64,000 nucleotides of DNA from Branchiostoma floridae (lineage: Eukaryota; Chordata; Leptocardii; Amphioxiformes; Branchiostomatidae): positions 3,395,703 to 3,459,702 of the forward strand of contig NC_049992.1 in NCBI RefSeq assembly GCF_000003815.2, given 5' to 3'. The position numbers and the translations under genes were made by a program. Below the pieces are notes generated by a model. It searched no databases, was not told the origin of the DNA, and saw only the letters and a program-made list of their open reading frames with translations. This document shows, piece by piece, positions 1,445 through 31,340 of this stretch; positions within the stretch are counted from its first letter, which is position 1, and each line of letters starts with the position of its first letter.

Positions 1445-4400
1445 TTAGACTAGCGAGTCCCAATTAAAATCGTCCTCTATATCGTCGTTAGTGAACTGTG
1501 AGGCCGCGGACTCCACTGGGATGGGGTGCTGCGGCCGCGGGTGCGCCCGCGGGCTGACGCTGTGGTGCGACCCGAGGGACGACGTGCTCCCGCTGGCATT
1601 CATCACGCTCAGGTGGTTCCCGGAGAGGTGCATGGAACCCGTCATGGACGTCCGGGTGCCAAGGCTGCCACTGGAGATAGTCGAGATAGAAGAACTAAAT
1701 GCAATGTATAATGGACAGTAGATAACTCTGTTTTAGGATAAGTGCATGGAACCCGTCATGGACGTCCGGGTGCCAAGGCTGCCACTGGACACAGATAGGA
1801 TAGAACAAATGAATATAGACAGTAGAAAACTCTTAGGTAGCTTCAGCATGGAGCTGGCCATTGCAGTCTGGGTGCCGAGGCTGCCACTGGATACCGGTAG
1901 GATAGAACAAATTTCAAATATCATGGACAGTAGGTTGTTTCAGGACAAGTACATGAAGATGGTATGTCCAGGTGCCAAGGCTGCCACTGGAAGAACATCA
2001 ATGAGAGTTACATAGGATACATTTTGTAGATAGACATTTCTGACAGCATCAGGGTGCCACTGGACATAGACAAGATAGAAGAACTAAATGCAATGTATAA
2101 TGGACAGTGGATAACTCTGTTTTAGGATAAGTGCATGGAGCCGGCCATCGACGTCCGGGTCCCAAGGCTACCACTGGACACAGATAGGATAGAACAAATG
2201 AATATAGACAGTATAAAACTCTTAGGTTTCTTCAGCATGGAGCTGGCTATTAATGTCTGGGTGCCAAGGCTGCCACTGGAAATAAATGGTTATATGCCAA
2301 TGAGGGTTACATAAGGAGACTAACGGATAGATTTTTTACATACACATTTCTGATAGCATCCGGGTGCCCGAGCTGCCACTGGGCACAGAATAACTTGATT
2401 CAATGTCATACCTGGGACATTACTATAGGATAATGTTCGATACGGGTGTCTTGGGCCATATCACATGGGGTTCTGCAAGTGCGGCGATTAAAAAATTTGT
2501 CAATGAATACCTGATTTTGACTTTGAAATTGCTGTTGTTACAATTTTTTGTTTGAGGACACATTACTTTGTCAACTTTTGTCACATTTCGCATCAAAACT
2601 TGTGTTTTCTCGGGTGGGTGTGACATACTGCAACAACCCTTGGCTGCAACCCTCTTCATGTAACTAAGATCATAGTACACATGCTGTAGGATACAGGTAG
2701 GCTATTAATATTGGAGACAGTGATACAGCATCTAACTGACCTGTGATGACTGGATCCGTAACTGCTGGCGTTACTGGCCTTACTCGCTCCTAACGGGTCG
2801 TTTCCACCATCGTGAAGTCTGGTCGAGGCAGCCTGAAAATCAACAAGGTTTGAAACGCTGAAACTTCTGTCTATTTGGAAGTAATTGGATGGACAGAAAA
2901 CTTTTAAACTTAACCTTGTAGCTTTATTTGGAATTCTGCGACTGGATATTATTGCAGACCATTGTTGTATCCCAATCCAGCATAGTGTAACCCAAAGCAT
3001 CTAAGTGGCTTACGAGCCTTGTTCTGTGGTATATACAATGTGTTTGTGGAAATTGGTGAATCAAACACTTTTATTCTTTGCTTTGGGACCAACGAGTTTA
3101 GTCTTTGGGACAGACGAGTTTAGTCTTCTACCTCCCGACTGAAGTCATGTACCCATTTTTTTTACACCTGGGTGGAGTGAGGAAGGCTGTCTTAAGTGCC
3201 TTTTATAAGGGGGAATGGCAAGTCTCGAAGGTGCAAAATCTAGGTTTTGAGCCCAAAACTCTACCAGTTACGCCACATCAAAAAGTCTAACCTGTGCAAT
3301 GCCAGTTTGGTTGAAGAATCGGCTGAGGGAGGAACAGAGATCTGAGAACTGTGACGGGTCCAGACACCAGTTATTCAGGTCTGCCTGCTTCATACTTTCC
3401 ATTAAACCTGAGGAAACATGTTCAGAACATGTCAGTATTACAATAATTATCGTGTATGGACTAGTGTGAACATGTACTTCACAGAAGCTAAGGTTAGAGA
3501 ACTGTGACGGGTCCAGACACCAGTTATTCAGGTCTCCTTGCTTCATACTTTCAAATAAACCTGAGGGAAAGATGTTACATATGTTAGTGAGAAAGTGTGT
3601 TACAATTTTGTATGGACTAGTGTGAACATGTACTAAACTGGAGCTATGGTTAGAGAACTGTGACGGGTCCAGACACCAGTTATTCAGGTCTGCCTGCTTC
3701 ATACTCTCCATTAAACCTGAGGGGAAGATGTTCAGAACTGATAGTGAGACAGTGTATTACATGTACAATTGTGTATGCACTAGCTAGTACTAGTAAGAAC
3801 ATGTACTATACAGGAGCTAAGGTTATAGAGAACTGTGAAGGGTCCAAACACCAGTTATTCAGGTCTGCCTGCTTCATACTCTCCATTAAAGCTTAGGGAA
3901 AGATGTTACATATGTTAGTGAGAAAGTGTGTTACAATTTTGTATGCACTAGTGTGAACATGTACTACACTGGAGCTAACGTTATAGAACTGTAACGGGTC
4001 CAGACACCGGTATTTGGAGTCCAACTGCTGCATACTTTCCATCAAACATGGGAAACACAATAATTAAAATGTAAATGTCTATGTTAAGTTTAAGAAAAAG
4101 TGTATATCTATATCCATAAGTCTTTATTTGACAAGTAAACACAAACCAGAAATTGTTTTTATTTTACCTTGAAACTGTGTCATGTCGATGTCGCCCCAGT
4201 TATAACTGCCTGCCAGACGACAGCTTTCCTTCAACAGGTCCAGACTGGTCAACCAGTCTCCAGCTGTAACCATGGAAACAGTAATCATGGAAACATGATC
4301 AATCATCATGACCAGAGATGAGAATGATACGATGATGATTTAAAAAAACAAACATTTAAACTGTTATTAAACATCTGAGCTGAACTTTAAATCTTCTTAC

Positions 4401-7400
4401 TTAGACTTAGATCCTTCTGTGTCTAATGACACATTTGGCAGCAAGCAGTCTTAAGTCTTTATCCCCCTCTAATTTTGTGATACTTGTAGTAATGATAGTT
4501 CACCTTTATCTGCGGGGTAACCTATATCCGTTGTTTTCAAAAACAACGTACTTAGGGATATCAAGTCGACTGGTGGTTTCAAACTGCATTATTTAGAAAG
4601 TATGGCAATTCTAACCACTGTCCATCGATTTTGTATCCCTAAATACTCTTTTTTTCACAAACAACAGATATAGGTTATCCCGTGGATAAAGGTGAACTTT
4701 TTGTATTCTTCAGGCTGATTCTAAAAGGCATCTACATGTATTTTCTAACATCTCACCTATATTGGAAGCTGTTAGTGACGCCGCCAGAGCCTGTGGTGTC
4801 GGCGCCGGTTTACTGAACACGGCAGAGTTGCCGGGCGTAGACCGGTTGCTGGTGGCAACTGTTCCTAGGGTCGTCATGCCACTGGATGATGCTGAAAACA
4901 ACAAGGTACAGCAAGCATGCATCAATGTTGAGGAAAACTTCCTGTGGTGCTAATATTCTGTTAGTTTTACAGACAAGCTGATCTGCAGGCGGATTTTCTT
5001 ATTTATCAAAATGGTGGCAAGGCGGTCTTGCAGGGGTTAGGGGTGTTGAATGTAAATAAGATGCTGGGCTCAAATCTCAAGCAGGCCCCAATGTTGCAAC
5101 CTTGAGAAATGCACTTAACACCTATTTCCCTACTTGGCTCAGATTAACTTAAGATGAGTACCTAGCTTTGGCAGGGAATATCTTCTTGCATGTGGCACAA
5201 AGCCAAAGGTCCCTTGTTTGAGTAGAGCCACACTTCAAGAACATGAAAGAACCCACTACAAGTACGGATAAGAGTAAGGGTCCATCCAATGTGAGTGGAT
5301 CAAACCTTGCAGTTCTTACACATCCTGTAAGTACTGTACAAAGTTGCTGTGATATGCTTTGAACTGGTTTACTAGTGATGCAAAAAAAAAAAAAATCAAT
5401 GACAAATAAATGTCCTCACATGTGGAGAGCTGTCCTGATGACGACTGTTCGAACACCTGTTTATACAGGCTGCGGAATGAAGCGCTCAGGTCCTCAAATG
5501 CAGGGTTGTTGTCCACCCAGCCGGCTTTGGGCTCGATTATCTGTAACGGATAAAACAATGATACAATGTTGAGTATTAAATGTGCAGGTGCAGCTTTCCA
5601 ATACAGTTTGCCATTCGTTAGCTCCTCTTTTGACTTTGTTTCAGTTTCAGTAAGTTTCTTTCAGGTATCAAGAGGTACACACCCCTATGTAGGAAACACT
5701 GAGCCTCCAACCCAAACTCTAACATGTCAGAACATTGAGGTAATGGAACATAGGGGTGTTACTGACAAGATGATGCCCAGTCACTGCTGCATCTTCATGA
5801 CAAATGTAGTTGGAAAGTCACCCCAGGGTTGGACAAGTTTTTCAAAATTCACTTGTCCTATCCGGCAAGCACATAAAAAAATTTACTTGCCCGATCCAAC
5901 TTTTCACTTGCCCAAAATTCACTTTCACTTCAGCAATGGAATTCTTACTATTGCCTCTATTTTTCTATATTGACCATTGCTCAATGTCATGACTGTAAAG
6001 GGTAAAAGGTAAAGAAGCATATCAAAATCTCGCGCAATGGAAAAATCTCACTTGTCCCATCGGGCAAGAACATGCACTTGCCCTGGACAATAGGGCAAAT
6101 GGACCTGTCTAACCCTACACCCATCCAACTCCCCTTAATGCAGATGACTGTACCTGAGGAATGGCTGCCTGTCCGTAGTTCAGTGCTGCTAGGGTGGGTC
6201 CGGACATGCCCAGACTGCCGCTACTGTTGGAGCTGTGTAGGCTCTCTTCTGGGCTGTAGGGCTGTGTAAACAAACAAACAAACAAACAAATAAACAATCA
6301 GACATGCCCAGACTGCCACTACTGTTGGAGCTGTGTAGGCTCTCTTCTGGGCTGTAGGGCTGTGTAAACAAACAAACAAACAAATAGGAATCACGAAAAT
6401 CCAGTATTTTACAATAACCAAAATATAAAGGTACCCATGCAGGGATAAGTAGCAGTTGAGCCTAAGCAAATGTCAATGCTCAGGTTTTATGTGGCTACTT
6501 AAACAAAACAAAAAAAATAGCAGTTGTAACAAAAATCAGCTAGAAGGCCCAATGCCAAATAATATTTTTCTTGAGATTTTAACTCTGATGTAGAGCATGC
6601 ATGTGTGTATGGGTGTATTTGTGTGTGTCTTCTTGTCATTGAACATCCCGAGTCCAATAAGGATTCTGTCAGATGTGTATCTTTGCTTGTGTGTGAGTGT
6701 GTATGTTTTCATTCATGTGTGAGTGTGCATGTGTTTTACTCACCCTATCACTAGACCTCCTCTTGCGAGGTTTTTGTCTGGCAGGGATGTGTGAGTGTGT
6801 GTGTGTGTACATGTGTGTGTGTGTGTGAGTGTGTATGTGCACACGTGTGTATATGTTACTTACCCTATCACTAGACCTCCTCTTGCGAGGCTTTTGTCTG
6901 GCAGGGATGGGGTCCTCCTGTGGATTGTTGTCTATCGCCCAATAGGAGCCCTGGAAACGGAAGAAAAAAATTCAACAATTACCCTAGAGGATAAACTGAA
7001 AATTCCAAACAGGAACCATGTGGCTGTGGCTGTCTTACTGAGGGGTGATTGTAGGGCACAAGATGTCAGTTAGAGGATCAGTCTGTTATATTTATTATCT
7101 ACAGTCCCAGTGCTATCAACCCAACATATGAGTGATCTTAAAAAAACTCTTGGTAGCAAAAAGGCCAGAGGCATTTTTATTAGATAGCCTGGAATGGTGC
7201 CAAAATTGCATGTTGGTAGTCAGGATTTTGTTTGGGGGATTTCTTTTGTAGATTTCTAATGTACCAGGGAGTATTGAAGGTCCAAGCTTTCTGGAATGGT
7301 CCAGGGGCATGCACCCCCATAAGATTTTTAAAATTCAACCCTTTGAAATGGTGGATAATATTTCCTGCATTTTTGCGAGGATTTCAAAGTAAAAAAAAAC

Positions 7401-31089: not shown

Positions 31090-31340
31090 ACAAACTTAAC
31101 ACTAGCTGTATGGTATATGTCATCATATATTATTTGTTTGTTCGTTTTTTATTATTTTTGATAGTTCAGAAGTACTAGACTACATTCTGTCACTGCAGAC
31201 AGAGAGATAATGCTACAGACAACCTTTATGGTATAACCCATAACATATTATTTGTTTGGTTTTGTTATCTTACAGTATAACACTAGCACATCAAGCCACT
31301 ATGGACAGGTAGAATACCTTTTAGGCAATTGCAAACTTTC
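30670..31340 (+). repeat. Degraded copies flanking RALBP1 exon 16
   Basis: Upstream, the exon-16 5' end (ACAGACCAAAAACTCGGACC) recurs near 30675 (CACGGACCAAAAACTTAGACC, acceptor lost) and near 30801 (CACAGTCCAAAAAATCTGGACC, acceptor kept). The second copy extends through codons similar to AIDRERQRCIQLK. Downstream of the stop, the exon's end (CACTGTGGACAGGGAGACAA) recurs near 31188 and more weakly near 31297, together with the ATTATTTGTTTG-type sequence that follows. Confidence 0.75.

Follow-up and report, generated by a model that had tools for sequence, protein, structure and literature searches.

A 64,000-nucleotide stretch of the Branchiostoma floridae genome (contig NC_049992.1, positions 3,395,703 to 3,459,702; the window) was analyzed for partial copies of exon edges that lie in the introns beside the exons themselves. 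The left half of the window contains three genes, here called FoxJ2/3 (minus strand), PSMB6 (plus strand), and RALBP1 (plus strand). Their exons were rebuilt from open frames and anchor peptides together with splice signals, yielding 10 exons for FoxJ2/3, 7 for PSMB6, and 14 found for RALBP1. Exon phases are consistent throughout FoxJ2/3 and PSMB6 and through most of RALBP1. The spliced FoxJ2/3 and PSMB6 models translate without interruption; the RALBP1 model is not open when joined, as no donor was found for its exon R12 (set at 30108) and its R10 acceptor is a weak one. These two positions were counted among the 57 edges tested below. For the last FoxJ2/3 exon there are two candidate acceptors, 1670 and 1664.

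The predicted proteins match the Pfam families Forkhead (FoxJ2/3, 4.3e-39), Proteasome (PSMB6, 1.3e-47), and RhoGAP (RALBP1, 7.7e-43), and the top PDB match of the spliced PSMB6 model is proteasome beta type-6. We provisionally take the third gene to be RALBP1 from the RhoGAP match and from what is known of the human protein. The name FoxJ2/3 is provisional and follows from the Forkhead match and from the label given in an earlier reading of the letters of the window (the sequence-only reading). Exons are labeled F for FoxJ2/3, P for PSMB6, and R for RALBP1; R7, R9, R11, R12, and R14 presumably correspond to exons 9, 11, 13, 14, and 16 of the sequence-only reading, a shift of two. The assembly totals 513,431,437 bases in 431 contigs, chromosome-sized contigs among them. 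A run of 100 N at 31882-31981, an assembly gap, separates the gene-bearing left part of the window from its right half. Scans of the window for Rfam families (gathering threshold) and for tRNAs gave no matches.

The sequence-only reading had claimed partial copies for at least nine exons of these genes. Alignment of edges to their flanks confirmed such copies for all ten of the exons that it named. The copies that span an edge number 22 and belong to 12 edges, 8 of them acceptors and 4 of them donors. The acceptors carry one copy (F4, R9, R11, and R12), two (R7 and R14), or four (F8 and F10), and the donors carry one (F3, P3, and R9) or three (R11). Three of the edges are weak, namely PSMB6 exon 3, R12, and R14 (44/57 and 36/45 identical in the last case). 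The copies observed are as follows.

6674..6789, minus strand: donor copy of FoxJ2/3 exon 3 (exon 6950-6864); GT retained, offset 120, 95/104 identical.
6301..6401, minus strand: acceptor copy of FoxJ2/3 exon 4 (exon 6261-6154); AG retained, offset 98, 93/97 identical.
3497-3633, 3653-3806, 3828-3964, and 3985-4103, minus strand: four acceptor copies of FoxJ2/3 exon 8 (exon 3407-3292); AG retained in 3/4.
1736..2284, minus strand: acceptor array of FoxJ2/3 exon 10, the last exon (exon 1670-1448), with pieces at 1736-1833, 1846-1945, 2051-2129, 2131-2222, and 2235-2284; AG retained in 5/5.
14597..14625, plus strand: short donor copy of PSMB6 exon 3 (exon 14343-14474); GT retained, weak, 25/29 identical.
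23699-23808 and 23828-23965, plus strand: two acceptor copies of RALBP1 R7 (exon 24055-24185); AG retained, frameshift in the outer copy.
26887..26967, plus strand: acceptor copy of RALBP1 R9 (exon 27044-27182); AG retained, in-frame stop inside the copy.
27235-27329 and 27341-27409, plus strand: donor copies of RALBP1 R9; the first has AT in place of GT, and the match of the second excludes the edge itself.
28716..28809, plus strand: acceptor copy of RALBP1 R11 (exon 28996-29098); AG retained, 74/91 identical.
29186-29301, 29325-29440, and 29459-29552, plus strand: three donor copies of RALBP1 R11; GT retained in 3/3.
29723..29770, plus strand: acceptor copy of RALBP1 R12 (exon start 29938); AG retained, weak, 38/47 identical.
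30662-30708 and 30785-30842, plus strand: two weak acceptor copies of RALBP1 R14 (exon start 30913); AG retained in 1/2, frameshift in the nearer copy.

The 22 copies are a trimmed set. Dropped from it were the second R9 donor copy (edge outside the match), three F10 copies at -316, -708, and -389 (9 exonic bases align in the last), an R11 acceptor copy at -724 (low complexity), and the R8 acceptor (TG repeats). The 26 copies used below for divergence and splice dinucleotides include F10 -316, -389, and -708 and R11 -724. Minimum offsets of the edge arrays run from 92 to 220, the exon 3 array being placed at 120 by edge alignment and at 132 by array listing, and the units of FoxJ2/3 exon 8 and RALBP1 R7 measure 153-157 bp. 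Spacers stand between the copies of several pairs, which blurs the duplication boundaries. A further tandem copy at 31060-31268 (offset 129, 71% identical) covers the region of the RALBP1 stop codon and the sequence downstream of it.

The edge copies are products of tandem duplication, because nearby duplicate pairs in a self-comparison of the window were almost all direct (35 direct versus 1 inverted), while distant pairs were evenly split (6 direct versus 7 inverted). Chance matching is rare: in a control against targets at a distance of 15-49 kb, spanning by at least 10 bp affected 0 to 0.13% of the points in each class, and a match of any kind 0 to 0.46%. This control was scored and masked more strictly than the edge alignment and covers spanning by at least 10 bp, not the 3-bp rule used below.

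All 22 copies follow the polarity that had been described, with copies of 5' edges upstream of the exon and copies of 3' edges downstream. The single match that spans an edge on the wrong side (F4, +884, score 44) is T-rich low-complexity sequence. This polarity says little, because the geometry of tandem duplication leaves no alternative: when a duplication starts in the intron and ends in the exon, or the reverse, the intact edge stays on the exon side, and the truncated copy therefore always lies on the intron side. Selection against duplications that break an exon inward, proposed earlier as the cause, was rejected as unnecessary, since geometry suffices. In-frame duplication within an exon does occur and is tolerated in the lysine-rich RALBP1 exon R10 (27869-28415), which contains 15-bp repeats.

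Compared point by point, exon edges are duplicated no more often than the sequence around them. Under a strict rule, 8 of the 57 edges were spanned by a duplicate when 9.6 were expected from circular shifts within each gene (P = 0.78 for 8 or more). A looser, 3-bp rule gave 13 of 57, the R8 acceptor included and then set aside as a TG-rich repeat, versus 10.8 expected in the same test (P = 0.28). Of 374 intron points lying over 100 bp away from any edge, 20.1% were spanned. The sequence-only reading had stated that an equal density of copies in random intron would remove any exon-specific meaning, and the window comes close to that state.

Similar duplicates occur elsewhere in the genome. In twenty 10-kb samples of this genome, one of them all N, the share of points spanned averaged 8.1% and ranged from 0 to 30%; the values for FoxJ2/3 (18%) and RALBP1 (23%) are high yet within this range. 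Exons in the 19 usable stretches were ab initio predictions. Applied to left-out genes at a threshold of 12, the exon finder recovered 9 exons exactly and 10 with at least one correct edge, with 1 false call; its calls in the right half of the window numbered 2. At the loosest threshold, 13 of 139 predicted edges were spanned versus 9.2% of 400 intron-side controls, and at the second threshold, 6 of 94 versus 4.7% of 275, counts that are small and possibly diluted by false exons. Duplicated edges thus seem to be present elsewhere in the genome at one to two times the local background.

We consider it likely that the window has a high local rate of tandem duplication in which exons serve as landmarks and exon edges are included by chance, and that the result is what has been called "mirages" in lancelets. 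Each mirage would begin as a tandem duplication of about 90-220 bp that happened to take in an exon boundary and arose perhaps through slippage or through the fill-in and end joining of a repaired break. On the exon side the edge stays functional, on the intron side a truncated ghost of it is left, and the ghosts then decay, mostly like unconstrained sequence. Unequal exchange may add copies to an array, and splicing would probably ignore the ghosts, by analogy with other lancelet genes. Because edges are duplicated about as often as the local background would predict, both when points are compared in the window and, to within twofold, in the small genome sample, a process directed at exons is not required. 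The background explanation offered earlier is in this respect borne out by the per-point test and by the small outside sample, with room left for some excess of edges at the level of arrays.

Several observations weigh against this reading. Nine of 12 arrays in the three genes include an edge; shifting whole arrays gives an expectation of 5.9 (P = 0.057), and shifting single units gives 3.1 (P = 0.0005). In this test, the offset of the exon 3 array was set at 120, not 132, and the array at the RALBP1 stop was omitted as a thirteenth, with which the count is 9/13. The array-level result is less clear than the per-point result and leaves room for some edge excess. The background itself is uneven: the gene blocks (1448-31089) had 0.19 of points spanned versus 0.069 in the right half (32000-63900; permutation P = 0.0085), and among the genes, PSMB6 reached only 0.022. 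Outside the window, stricter prediction thresholds gave 6 of 80 edges versus 4.3% of 233 controls and 5 of 58 versus 4.1% of 171, an excess of up to twofold. Duplicate pairs in the outside sample were also direct in excess both nearby (77 direct, 15 inverted) and at a distance (33 and 7), so that the direct bias there is not limited to near pairs. Lastly, differences between copy and exon favor the third codon position more than drift predicts. Counted as minimal events, they fall at positions 1, 2, and 3 in 19, 15, and 49 cases (third fraction, 0.59; bootstrap, 0.49 to 0.72), and without CpG sites in 18, 12, and 40 (third fraction, 0.57). By our own estimate, at most about 0.48 is expected for a drifting copy beside a conserved exon. 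Singletons of inner copies are skewed in the same way (4, 4, and 11; P = 0.029).

Part of the array-level excess probably has a simple source. In the 26 copies, the exonic part has diverged less (116/1148, 0.101) than the intronic part (188/1142, 0.165), so copies that include exon would stay recognizable for longer and some excess of edges among arrays is expected. This longer detectability would explain some of the excess, and perhaps not all of it.

It is also conceivable that duplication favors exon edges, for example through breaks or replication trouble during transcription or splicing, and we regard this as unlikely. The comparison of arrays with single units, the denser duplicates of the gene blocks, and the up to twofold outside excess at strict prediction thresholds speak for it. 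Against it stand the lack of any per-point excess in the window, the near equality of edges and controls outside at the loosest threshold, the prolonged detection that lower exonic divergence brings, and the sparseness of PSMB6; moreover, the window was picked out because of its duplicated edges. A bolder form of the idea, which we likewise regard as unlikely, is that transcribed lancelet genes, and exon edges especially, are favored for tandem duplication and that the ghost edges form a live pool for new introns and, at exons 3 and 8 of FoxJ2/3, for in-frame isoforms.

The sequence-only reading had named a functional layer of decoy or alternative splice sites as its alternative. It has gained little support and now appears very improbable. 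The splice dinucleotide AG or GT is retained in 22 of the 26 copies (19 of 22 in the trimmed set), versus 19.3 expected from the divergence of each copy. Splice dinucleotides are thus neither purged nor clearly preserved, and their loss is about as drift predicts. Decay is also evident inside the copies, in the stop of the R9 acceptor copy and in the frameshifts of the outer R7 and nearer R14 copies. Besides the retention of AG or GT in most copies, hints in favor of function come from two sources. Three of the 22 copies, all in FoxJ2/3 (exon 3 at +120; exon 8 at -153 and -309), could add an in-frame, stop-free piece, where a rough count predicts about 0.45; their ghost splice sites lie at 6743, 3560, and 3716, respectively. 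Two of these three are nested, and the remaining 19 copies would introduce a stop or a frameshift or no longer have the splice signal. The other hint is the third-position excess, which is also seen copy by copy (27, 24, and 65 differences at positions 1, 2, and 3) and is left over after CpG removal; candidate causes are the small number of sites and shared history among copies, and past coding constraint on some copies may perhaps contribute. The exon 8 family of FoxJ2/3, to which two of the open copies belong and which is the likeliest candidate for use, has no third-position bias (7, 6, and 8). For the lancelet globin genes, reverse transcription-PCR results suggest regular splicing (PMC3087553).

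Least plausible of all is an assembly artefact, in which unmerged haplotypes or misassembled reads would give false tandem copies. In its favor, the B. floridae assembly of 19 chromosomal scaffolds is described as coming from Sanger data on a single animal whose haplotypes diverge strongly and were afterwards merged (PMC7269912), copy numbers of the lancelet PGBD5 repeats are reported to vary between assemblies (PMC3902484), and the FoxJ2/3 exon 4 copy is 98.8% identical across 84 bp. Against it, 20 of the 22 copies are only about 75-93% identical to the real edge, a difference of 7-25% that makes a haplotype artefact unlikely, though copy numbers could be off, and resequencing upheld the PGBD5 repeats. 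A genome search with part of the FoxJ2/3 exon 10 array as the query gave 3 matches, all within that array, and so no second haplotype from which to judge length polymorphism.

Two dispersed families were noted in passing. An element of about 215 bp occurs twice in FoxJ2/3 introns (4489-4698 and 10107-10330), matches in both orientations, and resembles a palindromic miniature inverted-repeat transposable element. A family of about 200 bp is scattered over the right half of the window (36078-36278, 46364-46525, 50982-51193, and 60972-61170) in both orientations, with pieces 67-87% identical.

A curiosity known from single-gene reports since 2002 or earlier can now be set against the local background of duplication. 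The analysis also provides concrete loci at which the proposed route from ghost edge to new intron or isoform can be tested. Lancelet gene models close to such arrays need checking, and the earlier warning that gene predictors may miscall them is documented for lancelet PGBD5, where, in the part of the text covered, a predicted exon sits within the repeats (PMC3902484).

Mirages have already been published for the globin, Adh, troponin C, and PGBD5 genes of lancelets; the loci described here are new, and the phenomenon is not. The sequence-only reading described the feature correctly without recognizing that it has a name. The portions of the mirage literature covered do not name FoxJ2/3, PSMB6, or RALBP1 as mirage loci, and a genome-wide test of edges against background was not met in the literature searched, in searches that were not aimed at such a test and that covered subscription papers thinly.

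Among more distant systems, intron gain by tandem genomic duplication, reported for potato RdRp (PMC4974935) and proposed in the Rogers model (as cited in PMC3087553), likewise involves a duplication that carries splice signals. In the window, by contrast, no new intron is shown, and the copies lie within existing introns. The small tandem duplications that arise in break repair (PMC8355091) are, like those in the window, short and direct, and they are a common type of mutation there. They differ in being insertions of less than 100 bp in mouse and human cells, and a mechanism shared with the lancelet copies would be an extrapolation.

The nearest counterparts are in lancelets. The PGBD5 repeats (60 and 108 bp) are, in the covered text, imperfect copies over splice sites at exon boundaries, as in the window, and troponin C is cited beside them (PMC3902484). 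Unlike the present case, PGBD5 is one gene, and the covered text contains no background test. Ebner and colleagues described minisatellite-like duplications of intron-exon boundaries, both 5' and 3', in the B. floridae globin genes and called them "mirages" after work on Adh3 (PMC3087553). In the part of that report covered, units measure 150-160 and 157 bp, many but not all copies have AG or GT, BflGb6 has 6 and 3 units on its two haplotypes, and a route to new introns is proposed. The copies in the window differ from these in that they affect other genes and 12 edges across three neighboring genes, and the units given for Adh3 are 10-72 bp. They share with the Adh3, BflGb6, and BflGb9 mirages the tandem boundary copies at both 5' and 3' edges, the frequent presence of AG or GT, and, for the globin genes, unit lengths that overlap the 153-157 bp found in FoxJ2/3 exon 8 and RALBP1 R7.

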